Virus record (IMG/VR): IMGVR_UViG_3300042453_005014
Span: 1-30,238 of that record
From: a virus
Reading direction: 5' to 3' (one strand)
DNA length: 30,238 bases
The notes below the pieces were generated by a model. That model searched no databases. It had not been told where the DNA came from and saw only the letters and a list, made by a program, of their open reading frames with translations. Positions 4,681 to 21,076 of this stretch are shown piece after piece. A program made the translations under genes and the position numbers. Position 1 is the stretch's first letter; every line of letters starts with the position of its first letter.

Positions 4681-5274
4681 GTGTCTGTGTCCCTCCCGCT
4701 GCCCGTGCCGACCCCGTTCACCCCGGGGCGATCGCTCCCTCTGCGATCCGGTGGTGTGCACCCCACCACCGTTCGGCACGGGCCGTGGAGTGGCACTTGG
4801 CTGACCGCTCACCCTGTGGCGGTTGGTATTTTCGTATCCGGGCTCATCTGGGGGGCTGGTAGCCTGCTGTGCCACCATTCCCCCTTCGCGAGGTCGGATT
4901 ACGTGATGCCTCTCGGTTTGCCCGACCTGCACGCCACCTTTGACGCCGTGTTCTTCGCTGCCCAGGCCATGGCGGATCAGGGGCCCCCCGCCGCAGCGGC
5001 CGCACCACCCGCCGCCCCGGCCGGCGGACTGGCCCAGTTTCCGGGGCTCGACACGATTGTGATCAATCTGGGGGGCTGGGCCGCCATCCTGTACGGGCTG
5101 GCCAGCAAAATCGGCCGCCAAGTCGACAGCCGGGTCGCCGCCATCGAGACGCAGCTCACGCACCTGTCGGAAATGCCCCGCCAAGTCCGCCTGCTGCGGC
5201 GGGAGCTGCGGCGGTACCGGATGACTCCGAACGCGCACCCGCTGCCGGGGAAACCGCCGGAGGAAACGCCGTGA
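4681..5274 (+). CDS. membrane protein with C-terminal coiled coil (holin-like candidate)
   Basis: Start GTG 4681 is chosen because it is preceded by AGGAG (4671-4675). The 197-residue product has a Pro-rich N-terminus, a hydrophobic segment around residues 46-64 (AVGIFVSGLIWGAGSLL), an Ala/Pro stretch, a second hydrophobic segment around residues 122-141 (TIVINLGGWAAILYGLAS) and then a charged helix that is probably coiled coil (SRVAAIETQLTHL ... LLRRELRRYR). Two membrane helices with a charged C-terminus, followed by another one-helix membrane protein, fit a phage lysis cassette. No holin family is recognised with certainty, so this is inference. Confidence 0.5.
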   Translation: MSVSLPLPVPTPFTPGRSLPLRSGGVHPTTVRHGPWSGTWLTAHPVAVGIFVSGLIWGAGSLLCHHSPFARSDYVMPLGLPDLHATFDAVFFAAQAMADQGPPAAAAAPPAAPAGGLAQFPGLDTIVINLGGWAAILYGLASKIGRQVDSRVAAIETQLTHLSEMPRQVRLLRRELRRYRMTPNAHPLPGKPPEETP

Positions 5275-5576
5275 CCCCCGCGCCAACTGCCACGAGTCCG
5301 ACCAGCCCGCCCCCCGTGGGAATCACGGTTGGCCTGGGCCCTGTGCAGCAGTCGCTGCTGTTTCTGTTGCTGGTCGCGCTGCTGCGACGGCTGGGAATTC
5401 TGCCGCCCCCTGACGACGACTCGCAGGATGTGCGGTACCTGTTGTCGAGTGGCACGACCGAGGCGGCGTTGACCCAACTGCGGGCGCAGATCGCCTCAAC
5501 TCGGCCCTGGTGCCTGCCGCAGTTTGACCGTTTGGTGCAGCAACTGCAGAGCACCGGCTGCACTGTGATTGTCTGA
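5271..5576 (+). CDS. small single-helix membrane protein, 101 aa
   Basis: GTG 5271 overlaps the upstream stop (GTGA) and has CGGAGGAAA just before it. Residues about 1-16 are Thr/Pro-rich. Residues about 26-43 form one strongly hydrophobic helix (QQSLLFLLLVALLRRLGIL) followed by Pro-Pro-Asp-Asp-Asp. The C-terminal half is soluble. It could be the second member of a lysis pair with the preceding membrane protein, or a virion membrane-interacting protein. No family is recognised. Confidence 0.55.
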   Translation: MTPAPTATSPTSPPPVGITVGLGPVQQSLLFLLLVALLRRLGILPPPDDDSQDVRYLLSSGTTEAALTQLRAQIASTRPWCLPQFDRLVQQLQSTGCTVIV

Positions 5577-10441: not shown

Positions 10442-10627
10442 GTGGACGAACGCGGAAATTTGGTGATTACTCGGGAAGTCGGCGACTCTCTGCAGATCGG
10501 CGACAACGTGACTGTCGAGATCGTGGAGGTCAACAGACAGGGCAGAGTTCGGATCGGGATCCGTGCACCGCGCGAGGTGCAGATACTGCGACACGACGCC
10601 AAATCAACAGTCGCAAAACACGGTTGA
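10442..10627 (+). CDS. csrA: CsrA/RsmA-family RNA-binding translational regulator
   Basis: The 61-residue protein matches the CsrA pattern along its length: LVITREVGDSLQIGDNVTV (residues 7-25) then GRVRIGIRAPREVQILR (34-50). The RNA-contacting arginines equivalent to Arg6 and Arg44 are kept (Arg11 and Arg50). CsrA dimers bind GGA motifs in hairpin loops near ribosome sites and block or stabilise mRNAs. This copy has a 5-6 residue N-terminal extension from the GTG at 10442; a shorter TTG start at 10460 is possible. Three GGA motifs lie at 10428-10430, 10432-10434 and 10444-10446, over the start region, which suggests self-regulation. A phage copy could redirect host or phage translation. Family assignment is confident; targets are not known. 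Confidence 0.88.
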   Translation: MDERGNLVITREVGDSLQIGDNVTVEIVEVNRQGRVRIGIRAPREVQILRHDAKSTVAKHG

Positions 10628-10631
10628 AACA

Positions 10632-11228
10632 ATGCAGGTTTTGACACGTTCACACCGCAGTCTCGACCTGACGACCATCACCGCAGAGCAGATTCAAAAA
10701 ATCGATCTGCGAGCAGTCGTCGACATCGGACGCTTTGCCGCCCAGACCTCAAAATTCTGGAGCGTGGCCCAGCACTCGATGAACGTCGCAAGAGTCACCA
10801 GCAATTTGGGCGGCAGCGCCAACGCCCAGGCATGGGCCCTGCTACACGATGCCCATGAGGCGTATTTCGGCGATGTGATCAGACCGCTGGTCGATTTTCT
10901 CGGCCAAAAAGCCGGTGACGCAATCGACGGACTACGAAGACGCATCGATGCGGCGATTGCAGAACGGTTTGAGCTGACTTTAGACGCCGAAACTTTGACC
11001 GTTGTGCAGCAAGCGGACGACATTGTGCTGGCCGCAGAAATCATTGCGTTTTTTCCGGCTGACACCAAGACATTGTTGACCATTCCCGCAGTGGCCAGAC
11101 ATTGGCCCCTGATCCAATACGTCACGATTGAAGCGGTAAATCCCAAACTGTGGGTGGATCAAGTCGACGCACTTTGGCCTGTGTCGTTGACCTCACCGCA
11201 GAGCGAAACACCTGTCGGCGCGGCGTAG
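10632..11228 (+). CDS. HD-domain phosphohydrolase (YfbR-like)
   Basis: The 198-residue protein begins at ATG 10632, 4 bases after the csrA-like stop. Metal-binding HD residues are seen: His48 (WSVAQHSMNVA), His72-Asp73 (ALLHDAHEAYFGD) and a later Asp in QQADDIVLA (about residue 134-137). This pattern is typical of phage and bacterial 5'-deoxynucleotidase/HD hydrolases such as YfbR. Such enzymes remove phosphate from nucleoside monophosphates, which can adjust deoxynucleotide pools for phage DNA synthesis. The FGDVIRPLV stretch after the HD motif agrees with that group. The exact substrate is not known. A strong hairpin follows the gene. Confidence 0.78.
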   Translation: MQVLTRSHRSLDLTTITAEQIQKIDLRAVVDIGRFAAQTSKFWSVAQHSMNVARVTSNLGGSANAQAWALLHDAHEAYFGDVIRPLVDFLGQKAGDAIDGLRRRIDAAIAERFELTLDAETLTVVQQADDIVLAAEIIAFFPADTKTLLTIPAVARHWPLIQYVTIEAVNPKLWVDQVDALWPVSLTSPQSETPVGAA

Positions 11229-13136: not shown

Positions 13137-13244
13137 ACAGGTGTCCGGACGGGGGGGTCCCCCCCCCATGGGGGGGGGCTGAGGGTCCGGACGGCTCACG
13201 GCTTTTTCGCCCGTCGAACTTTTTGGAGGTGACATACTACTACC
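13137..13244. promoter_or_regulatory. G/C homopolymer palindrome flanked by GTCCGGAC repeats
   Basis: The spacer before the ParB-like gene contains GTCCGGAC at 13143-13150 and again at 13185-13192. Between them are a 7-G run (13151-13157) and a perfect palindrome of nine C, AT, nine G (13159-13178). The outer repeats can pair to enclose the inner structure, and the G runs could form four-stranded DNA. A T-rich stretch (13202-13206) and GGAGG (13225-13229) follow. It may be a terminator, an origin element or a protein-binding site. Confidence 0.5.
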
Positions 13245-13901
13245 ATGGCCAAAAAAGCCTCTAGGAGCCCTGAAAAGACGGGTCGGAACGATCCGGTGGC
13301 TTCCCAGTCGCCAGACCTTTCGCACGTCGCAGAAAGGCTGCGGGGGTTGGTCGAGCCGATCGACCACCTCGTGTCTGATCCGGCGAATGCCCGTACACAT
13401 GGACGGAAAAATCTTGACTCGATCAAGGGTGCGCTGCGGCAGTTTGGGCAGGTCGCCCCGCTGATCGTGCAGGCGGACAACGGGGTGGTACGGGCGGGGA
13501 ACGGGCGGTTGGCGGCGGCGCGGGAGCTGCTGGCTGAGGGTGATGGGCGGTGGTCGCAGATGGCGGTGGTGCGGGTGCCGTGGGACAACGCCACCGCCAT
13601 GGCCTTTGGGATCGCCGACAACCGCACCGCAGAGCTGGCCGAGTGGGATGATGGGGCGGTGGAGAAAATCTTGCGGGAGATCAACGTCGGGGACGAAGAT
13701 CTGTCGCAGATGTTTGCGGACCTGGCCGAAGATCTGGAGTTGATCGTCGCCGACACGGTTGACGACCCGGAGGAACAGCCGGCGTTGGATGTGCCGGAGC
13801 GGTTTCAGGTGATAGTCACCTGCACCGACCAAACCCACCAGAAGATTCTCTTGGAGGAACTGGAAGGAAGGGGGATTGAGTGCCGCGCCATCGTATCGTA
13901 A
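13245..13901 (+). CDS. ParB-like N-terminal domain protein
   Basis: The 218-residue protein has the ParB/Srx-type core: IDHLVSDPANARTHGRKNLDSIKGALRQFGQ (about 39-69), APLIV, then the nucleotide-binding box VVRAGNGRLAAARELL (about 81-96) and IADNRTAELAEWDD. In phages this domain often sits on, or next to, DNA-modifying enzymes and can act as a nuclease or CTP-dependent DNA-binding switch. Here it stands alone, with a C-terminal part rich in Asp and Glu. Its stop overlaps the following ABC/GNAT gene by 22 bases, so the two are probably made together. GGAGG lies 15 bases before the ATG, a rather long spacing. Confidence 0.75.
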   Translation: MAKKASRSPEKTGRNDPVASQSPDLSHVAERLRGLVEPIDHLVSDPANARTHGRKNLDSIKGALRQFGQVAPLIVQADNGVVRAGNGRLAAARELLAEGDGRWSQMAVVRVPWDNATAMAFGIADNRTAELAEWDDGAVEKILREINVGDEDLSQMFADLAEDLELIVADTVDDPEEQPALDVPERFQVIVTCTDQTHQKILLEELEGRGIECRAIVS

Positions 13902-15181
13902 GGACCTCCCCAGTGGCCCGGTCGGCCCGGGTCAAACAGCTCGAGGGGATGTTCGATCTGCCCCCCTCGAAACGGTCGGAGGTGAGCTGGGATGTTGACC
14001 TGCCGCTTGACCAAAAACCGTGGCAGATCGGGCTGATCCATGGCCCCTCGGGCTGCGGCAAATCGACGATCGCCAAGACGTTTTTTGGCGACCGGTTGAT
14101 CGCCGGTTTTCCGTGGACGGAGGGCCGGGCGATTGTGGATGATTTTCCCGAAACCATGGGGATCAAAGACATTACGGCGCTGTTGTCGTCGGTCGGGTTT
14201 TCGTCGCCCCCGGCGTGGCTGCGGCCGTTTTCCTGCCTGTCGAATGGCGAGCAGTTTCGGGTGACGCTGGCCCGGGCCCTAGCCGAGTCGCCCGACCTGG
14301 CGGTGATCGATGAGTTCACCTCGGTGGTTGACCGCACCGTGGCCCGGATCGGCTCGGCCGCAGTGGCGAAAGCGATCCGGGCGCGGCCGGGAACCCGGTT
14401 CGTCGCGGTCGCCTGCCACGACGATATCGTGGACTGGCTGCAGCCGGACTGGACCTACGAACCCCATACCGGAGAATTCCGTTGGAGGTCGGTTCAACCC
14501 CGACCACGCATCACCCTGCGGATCGAGCGGGTCTCGGTGGAGGCTTGGGGCCAGTTCGCACACCATCACTATCTGAACGCCAGTTTGAAACCGCAGGCGG
14601 AATGCTTTCTGGGGACGGTCGACGGCCGGCCCGCGACCTTCGCCGCGGTGATCAGTTCGCCCAACGGGGTCGGGCAGTGGCGCGAAAGTCGGTTGGTGTG
14701 TCTGCCGGACTTTCAGGGGGTCGGGTTGGGGCAGGCCATGTCGGCGGCGGTCGGCTCCATCTTCCGGGGGATGGGGGAGCGGTATTACAGCCGCACCGGA
14801 CACCCGGCGATGATCGCCCACCGGTACAAATCGCCGCACTGGCGGATCACCCAGCACGCCACCGCGATGCCGACCGCCCGATTGTTCACCGGCGGGAAGA
14901 ACGCTCACTACCGGACGTCGCACGGGCGGCAAACCGCCGGTTTCGAGTACGTCGGCCCGGCCCTCGACGCCGAGCTGGCCCGCCGGGTGCGGCGGGTCGA
15001 CCTGACCGAGTTGGTCCGCACCTACCCGCACCGCACGCGGGAAAAATACCTCGAACTGGCCCGGATCCCCCTGTCGCTGTTCCAGCGGTGGGAGCGGGAA
15101 GAGCTGGCCGCGGGCGGGTTGCGGCGGCTCGGGTCGGGGCGGGGGAAAGACCGCTACACCTACAGGCTGGCCGATGGATGA
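13880..15181 (+). CDS. ABC-type ATPase fused to a Mom-like GNAT domain
   Basis: The 433-residue protein starts at GTG 13880 after a strong GGAAGGAAG. The N-terminal half is an ABC ATPase: Walker A GPSGCGKS (55-62), signature LSNGEQ (120-125), Walker B LAVIDE (140-145) and H-loop His180. Residues about 213-360 look like a GNAT fold with the acyl-CoA loop QGVGLG (279-284) after strand ESRLVCLPDF, an HHHYL start and YYSRTGHPAMIAHRY. The layout and the HGR motif near its end (348-350) resemble phage Mu Mom, which makes N6-carbamoylmethyladenine in DNA. A basic C-terminal region follows. With ParB upstream and terminase downstream it may modify phage DNA before packaging. ATPase is sure, GNAT likely, Mom-like function inferred. 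Confidence 0.72.
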   Translation: MPRHRIVRTSPVARSARVKQLEGMFDLPPSKRSEVSWDVDLPLDQKPWQIGLIHGPSGCGKSTIAKTFFGDRLIAGFPWTEGRAIVDDFPETMGIKDITALLSSVGFSSPPAWLRPFSCLSNGEQFRVTLARALAESPDLAVIDEFTSVVDRTVARIGSAAVAKAIRARPGTRFVAVACHDDIVDWLQPDWTYEPHTGEFRWRSVQPRPRITLRIERVSVEAWGQFAHHHYLNASLKPQAECFLGTVDGRPATFAAVISSPNGVGQWRESRLVCLPDFQGVGLGQAMSAAVGSIFRGMGERYYSRTGHPAMIAHRYKSPHWRITQHATAMPTARLFTGGKNAHYRTSHGRQTAGFEYVGPALDAELARRVRRVDLTELVRTYPHRTREKYLELARIPLSLFQRWEREELAAGGLRRLGSGRGKDRYTYRLADG

Positions 15182-15572
15182 TCCGTCTTCGCCGTGCACG
15201 TGGCAGATCACTCCCCAGATGTTGGAGGTCGTGCCGAAAGTGCTGCTGCAGATTGCAGCCGACCGCGAGGCCCCGCCGGCCGCCCGGGTCAAAGCCGCCT
15301 CCGCCCTGGTCGAGATGAATGAGCAGAACGCGCGGCTCTCCCGCCAAACCCCGGAGTCTGTTCCCGGATCCCCCTCCCCAGGAACCACCCCCGCCGTCCG
15401 GATCGAACTCTCGGCCGACGGGCTCGAAGCCCTGCGCGGGAATTTCCTTGGCCGACTGGCTGCAGCAGGCCAGCCCGCAGGATCTGCTGGCCCTGCAATC
15501 GCTGATCGAGTCGTCGACGCCCCCGCCGCCACCGTCCGCCCCCGGTCGCGTCGTGGTGCGGACCCTCGGTGA
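15174..15572 (+). CDS. small terminase-adjacent protein, 132 aa
   Basis: ATG 15174 overlaps the ABC/GNAT stop by 8 bases. The convincing part is the N-terminal half, with helix LEVVPKVLLQIAADREAPPAARVKAASALVEMN (residues about 18-50), a pattern common in short proteins before phage terminases. The C-terminal third is Ala/Pro/Arg-rich and overlaps the next gene in another frame; it looks like read-through into that gene's coding sequence. It may be a packaging accessory or DNA-binding subunit; no family is certain. Confidence 0.55.
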   Translation: MDDPSSPCTWQITPQMLEVVPKVLLQIAADREAPPAARVKAASALVEMNEQNARLSRQTPESVPGSPSPGTTPAVRIELSADGLEALRGNFLGRLAAAGQPAGSAGPAIADRVVDAPAATVRPRSRRGADPR

Positions 15573-16059
15573 GGTGGCCGAGTGGTTTGGGTTGGAGCTC
15601 CAAACCGTCAAACAGTGGCGAGTCGGTCCGCAGGGCTGCCCGGGGGAGGAGGGGCAATACGACGTGCAGGCCATCGCCCGCTGGCGACTGGCCCGCCCGA
15701 CCTCCCGGGGGCCCAGCCAGGCGAAAGCGGACCTCGAGGAGGAGTCGTTGCGGCTGAACAACGCCCGGGCGAACCTCAAACTCCAACGCGAGGCGGGCGA
15801 GCTGGTCAGCCGGGCGGCCGCCAAGTCGGCGATTCGGGGAATCTTCGGGCGGCTAAAGGCCCAGATCGAACAACTGCCCGACGCGCTGGCCCCGCTGGTG
15901 CCGACCGAGGTCCGCACCGACTTCCGCCGGGATTGCGTCGAGCGACTGCGGATCTTTCTGTCGCAGCTCGCCAACTTCCGGTTTGAACGGGACGTTTCGG
16001 GAGCGGATCGGGGGGCCGAATCGCTCCCAGATCAGTCCGATCAGGAGGGAAAAGGGTGA
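15448..16059 (+). CDS. terminase small subunit (Nu1-like, DNA-binding)
   Basis: A winged-helix/HTH segment is visible: VRTLGEVAEWFGLELQTVKQW followed by EEGQYDVQAIARWRL, as in lambda Nu1-type small subunits that recognise the packaging site. Next come a charged coiled coil (KADLEEESLRLNNARANLKL) and a helical C-terminus. The frame is open from 15319, but the first 43 residues there are shadow-like (Arg/Pro-rich). I choose TTG 15448 because good coding character begins there (ADWLQQASPQDLLALQSL); GTG 15553 is another option. The length of 203 aa suits the family. The end overlaps the large subunit start. Confidence 0.72.
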   Translation: MADWLQQASPQDLLALQSLIESSTPPPPPSAPGRVVVRTLGEVAEWFGLELQTVKQWRVGPQGCPGEEGQYDVQAIARWRLARPTSRGPSQAKADLEEESLRLNNARANLKLQREAGELVSRAAAKSAIRGIFGRLKAQIEQLPDALAPLVPTEVRTDFRRDCVERLRIFLSQLANFRFERDVSGADRGAESLPDQSDQEGKG

Positions 16060-17996
16060 ATCTGCTCGAAAACACGACCGATTTCGCCGACTGCTGGGAC
16101 ACGTTTGAGCCCATAAAACCGCTGAATTTCGCGGATTGGGCGGCCAAATACGTCGTGACGGACACGGGAAAGCCCTATGACGCTCTGTTCTATCCGCATA
16201 TCACGGCACCGGGGGGGCCGGGGGATGCGTTCGACGATCACCGGGTGCGGGTGATCGTGCTGCAGTGGGGCGTCCGGCTGGGAAAAACCTTCTTCGGATC
16301 GTGTGCTCTGCTCAACGCGGCCCACCAGAGCCCCTCGCCCATGATGCTGGCGTCGTCGCGGGAGAAACTTTCGATCGATGTGACCGCCCGGCTGTACGAA
16401 ATGTTGCGCCGCGGTCCGCTGTCGGACCTGCTGGTCCAACCCGAGCACCTCCAAAAGCGGGACCTGGTCGAGTTCGAGGCGGCCCGCTGCTATGTCGCCT
16501 GGTCGCGCTCGCCGTCCAGCCTGGCGGACAAAAACTGCCGGGTGGGGCATGCAAACGAGGTCGACAAATGGGAACAGGCCGGGACCTCGACCGAGGGGGA
16601 CCCGCTCGACCTGTTCCTCGACCGGTTTAACGACTTCCTCCCGTCGCGAAAGGTGGTCATCGAGGGAACTCCCTCGGTCAAACACCGCTCCCGGGTCGAG
16701 CGGTGGCGGCTGTTGGGGTCGAATTGCCGGCTCTGGGTGCCGTGCCGGCGGTGCGGGCGGTACCAGGTGCTGATCCTGGGGAACGAAAAACTCCCCCACG
16801 GGATCAAATGGGCGGCCGGGCCCGACGGGCGGACCGATCTCGACACCGCCGTGGCCACCGCCCGGTACGTCTGCGAGCATTGCCACGGGGATTTGCAGTC
16901 GGAGGACCGCCCGTGGATGCTGCGGCGGGGGGTCTGGGTGCCGGAGGGGTGCGGGGTCGACGATGCGGCGGCCCTCGAGGTGGCGACCGCCGAGACCCGG
17001 CCCGCTTGGCGGGGCTGGTCCGAAGCGTCGTGGATCACCGGGACCCCGTTGCGGGTCGGGGAGGTGGCGTCGTACCAGCTTGCCTCGTGGTATGCGCAGG
17101 CGATCCCCGGCTGGGGCGACTTCGCCAGGCGATTCCTCACGGTCAAATCCCGGCCGCAGTCGCTGCGGGCGTTCATCAATCAGTGGGCGGCCGAGACGTG
17201 GGAGGCGAGCGAGCGGCGCGAGACTTGGGAGAAACTGGGGCAGCGGCTGATCGATCCCGAGCTGGCCGAGGGGGTCGCCCCGGGTTCGTCGGTCGTGATC
17301 ACCGCGGGGATCGACAAACAGCTTGACCACTACGTGTGGTTAATTGTCGCCTGGGACCATCGAGAAATGGCGCACGTGGTCACCTATGGCACGTGCAAAA
17401 CTCTGGACCAACTGGACGCAGCCGTTTTCAACCGGACGATCCCAACAGGCCATTCCATGCCGCAGCGGGTGCGACTGGCCCTGATCGACTCTGGGTTCCG
17501 GAACTCGGTGGTGTATCGCTTTTGTCGTTCGCGCATCCGAAGGGGGCGTGTGTATCCCTGCAAAGGGGCCAGCAGCCCGCTGGGGACGTTTGTGCAAAAA
17601 CGCATTCTCAGCAAAAACACCTCGTCCCCCGGGCAGAAAATTGTGTTGGTCGACACGGTCTCGACGCAGGACTGGATCGATGGAGTCATTGCCGGGGATG
17701 AGGCGGGGGGCTCGACCGCGAGCCTGTTTGCCGGGTCGCTCGGTCAACACCAGGACTTCCTCGAGCAGTTGCTGAACGACGGCCCGGTAGGGTCGATCGC
17801 AAAAGACGGAAACTACCGGGAACGCTGGGAACGATTGGACCCGAACATTCCCAACGATTACCGGGACGCCTGGCGGTATGCGTTCGCCGCGATGAAACTG
17901 CTCAACCGTGGGGCTGCCATGCGTCCCCGGCCTGTGGTACACTCTGACGCACCTACGACGCCCGACGCTGGAACCGTGCGCGTCGTCGAGCTGTAA
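16056..17996 (+). CDS. terminase large subunit (lambda GpA family)
   Basis: The 646-residue protein carries an ATPase motor with WGVRLGKT (71-78, Walker A-like), NEVDKW (167-172, Walker B-like) and EGTPSV (motif III region). A zinc-ribbon insert has Cys230/Cys233 and Cys273/Cys276. The C-terminal nuclease has Asp420 in ITAGIDKQ, LIDSGFRN and a late acidic DYRDAWRYAF. This order is that of GpA-type terminases, which cut concatemers at cos and pump DNA into proheads. GTG 16056 follows a perfect AGGAGG (16043-16048) and overlaps the small-subunit stop. The Nu1-GpA pair suggests cos packaging. Confidence 0.92.
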   Translation: MNLLENTTDFADCWDTFEPIKPLNFADWAAKYVVTDTGKPYDALFYPHITAPGGPGDAFDDHRVRVIVLQWGVRLGKTFFGSCALLNAAHQSPSPMMLASSREKLSIDVTARLYEMLRRGPLSDLLVQPEHLQKRDLVEFEAARCYVAWSRSPSSLADKNCRVGHANEVDKWEQAGTSTEGDPLDLFLDRFNDFLPSRKVVIEGTPSVKHRSRVERWRLLGSNCRLWVPCRRCGRYQVLILGNEKLPHGIKWAAGPDGRTDLDTAVATARYVCEHCHGDLQSEDRPWMLRRGVWVPEGCGVDDAAALEVATAETRPAWRGWSEASWITGTPLRVGEVASYQLASWYAQAIPGWGDFARRFLTVKSRPQSLRAFINQWAAETWEASERRETWEKLGQRLIDPELAEGVAPGSSVVITAGIDKQLDHYVWLIVAWDHREMAHVVTYGTCKTLDQLDAAVFNRTIPTGHSMPQRVRLALIDSGFRNSVVYRFCRSRIRRGRVYPCKGASSPLGTFVQKRILSKNTSSPGQKIVLVDTVSTQDWIDGVIAGDEAGGSTASLFAGSLGQHQDFLEQLLNDGPVGSIAKDGNYRERWERLDPNIPNDYRDAWRYAFAAMKLLNRGAAMRPRPVVHSDAPTTPDAGTVRVVEL

Positions 17997-20821: not shown

Positions 20822-21076
20822 GATTCGAACTCCTCGGGCAAGTGGTGTCGTCGTTCGCGTTGTGCGTTCGACATGGTGTTATAATAAACGCTATCGATCA
20901 CAATGCAACCCCCCCACCACCAAATTCTTGCCGTTTTTTGGGTTCGGCCGGGGGTCGGGTGTGGATCGGAGCGACGCCGGAAGCTCCGTTCCATTGCCGA
21001 AAAATTTCCGGAATTCCGCCGGGCCGGGGTGGTTTCCGGCTGGCGGGTGGTAGTTTGCCGTCGTTTTCTGCTGGCG
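20822..21076. promoter_or_regulatory. divergent promoter region between accessory and head operons
   Basis: This 255-bp spacer separates the leftward accessory operon from the rightward head genes, so both should start transcription here. An AT-rich stretch (20877-20905, ATGGTGTTATAATAAACG) contains TATAAT at 20880-20885, a perfect -10 hexamer on +; on - it reads ATTATA. The copy of the REP-like hairpin at 21016-21056 stands nearer the head genes. Confidence 0.5.
21016..21056 (+). repeat. REP-like hairpin with TGGCGGGTGGTAGTTT (copy 3)
   Basis: CCGCCGGGCCGG (21016-21027) pairs with 21036-21046 with one bulge and one G-T wobble. The 16-mer at 21041-21056 is identical to 2493-2508, and bases before it are also similar (GGTTTCC against GGTTCCC). 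Both copies stand shortly upstream of a + gene, so a promoter-linked or transcript-processing role is possible. Confidence 0.6.

Follow-up and report, generated by a model that had tools for sequence, protein, structure and literature searches.

Coupling of a GNAT acyltransferase to an ABC ATPase in phages has been described before. In the passage of PMC7824862 that cites Iyer et al. 2013, the function predicted for such a GNAT is an acyl modification, as yet uncharacterised, of a base in DNA, and phage pT24 is named as a carrier. Proteins with the ParB fold are likewise associated with DNA modification: fusions of the fold to DNA methyltransferases are frequent in phages (PMC12704722), and ParB-domain proteins adjoin the modification genes of carboxymethylcytosine phages (PMC12783734). 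The searchable literature yielded no measured modified base for any member of the family joining the two domains (here, ABC-GNAT), and a literature search for COG2401 returned nothing. Phage Mu Mom, another GNAT-superfamily phage enzyme, differs from ABC-GNAT in having no ATPase and a different CoA loop.

The locus reported here shares with the pT24 system, as presented in PMC7824862, both the domain pairing and the predicted role. The homologue in Tenacibaculum phage pT24 is 38% identical (E 2e-54) and consists of two adjacent genes, whereas the present gene encodes one protein, which is extended at the C-terminus by an HTH-like region and has ParB as its partner. The architecture and role proposed in the original prediction are thus not new, an ABC-coupled GNAT acting as a DNA-base acyl modifier having been predicted in that source; what is added here is the functional context of the ABC-GNAT cassette.

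The window, i.e. the whole stretch of DNA analysed, is a virus record of 30,238 bases and may be a fragment. On its plus strand, two open reading frames at the coordinates originally given encode a ParB/Srx-like protein of 218 aa (13245..13901, ATG start) and the ABC ATPase-GNAT fusion protein of 433 aa (13880..15181, GTG start). A purine-rich ribosome-binding stretch lies immediately 5' of both, and no sigma-70 promoter-like site was found at the operon. The two genes overlap by exactly 22 nt (13880..13901, plus strand), an arrangement that suggests translational coupling. They lie just 5' of the terminase genes on the same strand, namely the small subunit at 15319..16059 (PHROG 57, E 5e-15) and the GpA-type large subunit at 16056..17996 (Pfam and PHROGs), so that both the overlap and the position had been described correctly. 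The closest relatives in bacterial contigs, from a genome-contig scan, are mainly from planctomycetes, which makes a planctomycete host for the window virus plausible.

Three other features of the window were recorded. Long G and C runs (GGGGGGG TCCCCCCCCC ATGGGGGGGGGG) upstream of the ParB-like gene at 13150-13185 could form a hairpin or possibly reflect a homopolymer assembly problem. An HD-domain protein at 10563-11228 resembles deoxyribonucleoside 5'-monophosphate phosphatases (PHROG 318, E 2e-26) and is possibly a nucleotide-pool enzyme. A stretch of about 180-200 bases at approximately 20825-21023 recurs in relatives (L327 at 7111, 9241 and 10320; L326 at 4383) and is possibly a repeated element before the portal gene.

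The ParB-like identity of the 218-aa protein was confirmed by its match to PHROG 620 (E 7e-28), which places it in the ParB/Srx superfamily, with further PHROGs matches to 498, 723 and 8071 and a GNGR box visible in the sequence. No ParB-related Pfam match was obtained at E<=1, and among NCBIfam models only ICE ParB matched, at E 0.003. No partition-type HTH or dimerisation domain was recognised in the protein using Pfam, PHROGs and NCBIfam; its C-terminal tail is conserved and ends at the overlap with ABC-GNAT. The gene is flanked by ABC-GNAT and a gene for a DnaC-like helicase loader, and ParA is not among its immediate neighbours.

The 433-aa protein matches PHROG 11143 nearly end to end (residues 5-361, E 1.5e-104), a family with no assigned function in PHROGs and not named there as DNA modification. 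Membership is borne out by the two-domain profile, the intact ABC motifs and the GNAT fold with its acyl-CoA loop. The ABC ATPase domain (residues 1-206; 13880..14497, plus strand) was identified from a Pfam ABC_tran match (E 1.6e-10) and from a fold match to MJ0796, transporter NBDs and other ABC domains (Z about 15). Complete ABC motifs had been claimed, and the key residues of Walker A (residues 55-62), the signature LSNGE (120-124), Walker B (142-145), the D-loop (148-151) and the H-loop (H180) are 100% conserved in 68 aligned relatives. In the Q-loop region (D87/F89) the glutamine position is apparently taken by the invariant D87, so the ATPase mechanism may differ; with this exception, the invariant residues are those of an active ATPase. 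PADLOC gave partial matches only, of the protein to mad3/mad8 ABC regions and of the ParB-like protein to an MTase_II model, and these do not amount to a defence-system assignment.

The GNAT acyltransferase domain (residues 209-360; 14504..14959, plus strand) gave only sub-threshold matches in Pfam and was assigned from the structural model, the fold match and conservation. AlphaFold modelled the full-length protein (68 sequences) with pLDDT 92.2 and residues 200-377 alone with pLDDT 90.6. Compared with the GNAT 1y9k, the isolated model gave a VIA Z of 14.0 (rmsd 3.0, 134 residues aligned) and the domain within the full-length model a Z of 14.5. The region is therefore modelled confidently as a GNAT fold with an acyl-CoA loop, as had been anticipated. 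The proposed QGVGLG core is also upheld: the acyl-CoA pyrophosphate loop, Q279-G284, retains QGxGxG in the 68 relatives (Q279 and G280 100%, G282 97%, G284 91%). W223, F226, H230, Y231, R271, W321 and R350 are invariant in the same set; some of these aromatic and polar residues would lie at acceptor-binding positions, with W223, F226, H230 and Y231 on the putative acceptor side. The C-terminal extension (residues 375-431; 15002..15172, plus strand) has a helix-turn-helix and beta-wing-like secondary structure in the predicted model. It is variable and, among 161 close relatives, is found in a minority, in a few close relatives only.

The original prediction had further described the GNAT domain as Mom-like. 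A rival reading along these lines would make the protein a true Mom relative producing N6-carbamoylmethyladenine, in which the ABC domain plays an accessory part. Mom and ABC-GNAT are both GNATs in which an HY motif comes early and a core strand carries an arginine, and the proposed HHYL and R-x-V strand are indeed conserved in the ABC-GNAT family. The third mark, HGR, does not hold, as G349 is conserved in 18% and R350 alone is invariant. Using 65 GNAT domains as the query, hhalign produced a collinear, near full-length but weak alignment with Mom (166 columns), at a probability of 0.2-0.5% against two Mom alignments of 7 and 46 sequences (0.5% with the latter). The controls RimI and remote family members gave 27% and 99.9%, showing the comparison to be valid on this domain. 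No match was obtained to the Mom models PF25680 (E<=1) or PHROG 1384 (E<=0.1), for which Mu Mom itself scored 2e-75 and 8e-84, and the QGxGxG loop of ABC-GNAT is missing from the Mom alignment. A PDB profile search with the GNAT profile (E<=10) returned ordinary GNATs, the best being a weak match to 2ozh (E 0.004), and Mom 8bv8 was absent though present in the same collection. In the fold search 8bv8 lay outside the best 50 entries listed, which is not evidence against relatedness.

Mom thus has no family-level sequence similarity to ABC-GNAT that could be detected. By profile the GNAT domain is nearer to RimI-type protein acetyltransferases, and the "Mom-like" designation lacks support at the sequence level; kinship beyond the GNAT superfamily is unproven. 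The failure of this kinship in the profile comparisons removes any pointer to N6-carbamoylmethyladenine specifically, and we regard a true Mom relative as very improbable, even though a Mom homologue occupies the same slot as ABC-GNAT in the Porphyromonas gingivalis phages described below. ABC-GNAT may work as Mom does, by acyl transfer to a base, and not be Mom. The Mom label should be dropped and the DNA-modification label, well supported but unproven, kept.

Proximity to RimI also counts against the DNA-modification reading, and the GNAT and ABC folds by themselves do not specify DNA. Another reading is a protein- or RNA-acetylating effector of the RimI or TmcA type, reprogramming the host and present in a variable operon only by chance. 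TmcA is itself an ATPase linked to a GNAT, and the nearest solved folds among the best 50 entries listed are protein N-acetyltransferases, e.g. RimI and Naa50. Phage RimI-like GNATs are moreover presumed to target proteins (PMC5512222). The genomic surroundings of the family bear on this alternative.

ABC-GNAT relatives are numerous. A tblastn search of a phage collection gave 60 records with a match, a viral scan at least 593 confirmed relatives, and bacterial and archaeal genome contigs 464 matching stretches, and hundreds of metagenomic loci carry a protein of the PHROG 11143 type. Separate adjacent genes, with ParB before them, encode the ABC and GNAT domains in Streptococcus phage MismyG, Lactococcus phage P335 and Oenococcus phages. 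Linked ParB-ABC-GNAT sets, which had been suggested as a check, were counted in 161 close relatives, 150 of which had sufficient upstream DNA. A ParB gene lay within 400 nt upstream of ABC-GNAT at 137 of the 150 loci, further upstream (>400 nt) at nine and nowhere upstream at one; at the remaining three (L006, L173 and L211) ParB is fused to ABC-GNAT in one frame. These counts are of loci and not of independent events, as some are near duplicates (e.g. L119 and L189). The exact 22-nt overlap recurs in 38 of the 137 relatives with an adjacent ParB. In the more distant members from T4-like, Mu-like and flavobacterial phages, no ParB is annotated beside ABC-GNAT.

Functional context comes from the exchange of cassettes at one position. 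In Gordonia phages of the genus Sourvirus, ParB is gene 1 and the terminase follows the cassette. The cassette of Sour contains ParB, a queuine tRNA-ribosyltransferase homologue, QueC, QueD, QueE and a GTP cyclohydrolase. That of CaiB and CloverMinnie contains ParB, a TET/JBP-like oxygenase (E 5.6e-4, too weak for the Pfam threshold), an amino acid:DNA transferase (E 5e-27) and a kinase, genes that have been read as nucleotide modification genes (PMC9302106). In Axumite and NHagos, ParB is instead followed by ABC-GNAT and a formyltransferase. Pairwise identities among the Sourvirus phages are 66-81% for the terminases and 55-65% for the ParBs; ABC-GNAT and the formyltransferase of Axumite and NHagos are 88-89% identical compared with only 67% for their terminases, which suggests that the two genes were transferred as a unit.

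A comparable slot is found in P. gingivalis phages, where phage008a carries ABC-GNAT and a formyltransferase and phage015a a Mom homologue, the left flank matching at 86% identity across 3.1 kb and the right flank at 82% across 93 nt. Interchange with known DNA-modification cassettes at one locus is thus seen in Sourvirus and P. gingivalis phages, not in the window phage itself. In the terminase lineage of the latter, the distant relative L335 (TerL 43% identical to that of the window) carries in the pre-terminase slot, at 4768-5430, a ParB that continues, as a fusion, into the first part of a DNA methyltransferase (CGD...DPPYN motif; PHROG 498, E 2e-32) and is then cut short. The close relative L328 (IMGVR_UViG_3300025585_002054, TerL 80%) has at 62-1060 a ParB whose direct successor is the terminase small-subunit region, ABC-GNAT being absent there. 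This counts against the DNA-modification reading, though the contig is short and ABC-GNAT may lie outside it; where the gene would once have begun there is a short reading frame, possibly what is left of it. L328 and the distant members with no annotated neighbouring ParB show that the pair is not obligatory.

ParB also precedes Mom, overlapping a Mom homologue in Microbacterium phage MenE. The ParB-associated cassettes (Dpd/Que in Sour, TET/JBP with ADDT in CaiB, ParB-MTase fusions and CmoX, PMC12783734) resemble the present module in having a related ParB first and in often lying before the terminase, and differ in the modification chemistry downstream of ParB. DNA modification would be the common thread of these exchanges, with ParB as a general partner, and this genomic context gives strong circumstantial support for a DNA-marking role. 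ABC-GNAT is exchanged for DNA-modification cassettes in three separate cases, in one of them for Mom itself, and it stays coupled to a ParB found with other DNA-modification genes too; both points argue against an effector of proteins or RNA, which we consider unlikely.

Two observations concern genes found together with ABC-GNAT. A small protein of formyltransferase type follows it in Gordonia, Porphyromonas and Pseudomonas phages (L024:1805-2452, L020:6128-6601 and L022:6068-6685), the first two proteins matching PF00551, and may add a second modification step. No such partner was found near any of the 161 close relatives and the terminase genes adjoin ABC-GNAT in the window, hence the formyltransferase lies outside the module there. 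An ABC-GNAT gene and a Mom homologue coexist in Aeromonas phage PX29 (GU396103.1), at 53335 and 36309, which suggests that the two are not redundant.

The terminase neighbourhood itself, seen in the window, Leptospira phage LE4, Pmp13, P335, MismyG and Axumite, would also fit a packaging or segregation factor, with ParB and the clamp of the ABC domain arranging DNA for the neighbouring terminase and the GNAT domain being regulatory. In Mu-like and T4-like carriers, however, the ABC-GNAT gene lies away from the terminase, among tail or other genes, while L328 has an otherwise similar terminase without ABC-GNAT next to it, and the GNAT motif residues are invariant. We rate this explanation the least probable of those weighed, and a most improbable one.

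Taken with the ParB linkage (adjacent at 137 of 150 loci and fused at three), the cassette exchanges support the DNA base modification originally proposed. We judge it likely that ParB and ABC-GNAT make up a cassette for the hypermodification of phage DNA, and the pair is probably a real and functional DNA-marking module of the kind described. For such a cassette we infer a course of events in which ParB would bind nucleotide and DNA and recruit ABC-GNAT, serving as a nucleotide-dependent DNA loader or targeting factor that further DNA-modification systems of phages would also use. The ABC domain is an NBD lacking a membrane partner; it would form an ATP-driven dimer that closes around DNA, and this clamp would expose a base to the GNAT site. 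The GNAT domain would then acylate an exocyclic amine of that base, with an acyl-CoA as donor, and the mark would shield the phage DNA from restriction by the host, either ahead of packaging or while it proceeds. Beside the minimal cassettes of LE4, Pmp13 and P335, no gene is annotated for an enzyme that would prepare an unusual base, so that a canonical base is the more likely acceptor. A broader proposal, plausible if somewhat doubtful, is that ABC-GNAT proteins constitute a widespread class of ATP-gated DNA acyltransferases in which the ABC clamp presents a flipped base, the product is a non-momyl acylated (in some lineages further formylated) base, and ParB is the common loader.

The family is large, with its at least 593 viral relatives and its many bacterial and archaeal counterparts, and its chemistry has so far only been predicted. 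Exchange with Mom, deazaguanine and TET/JBP cassettes makes this domain-based prediction testable: if it is true, closely related phages within a single genus that carry different cassettes should show correspondingly different virion nucleosides. A new acylated DNA base would then add to the counter-restriction strategies of phages, and could help to explain why ParB is found beside so many phage DNA-modification systems.
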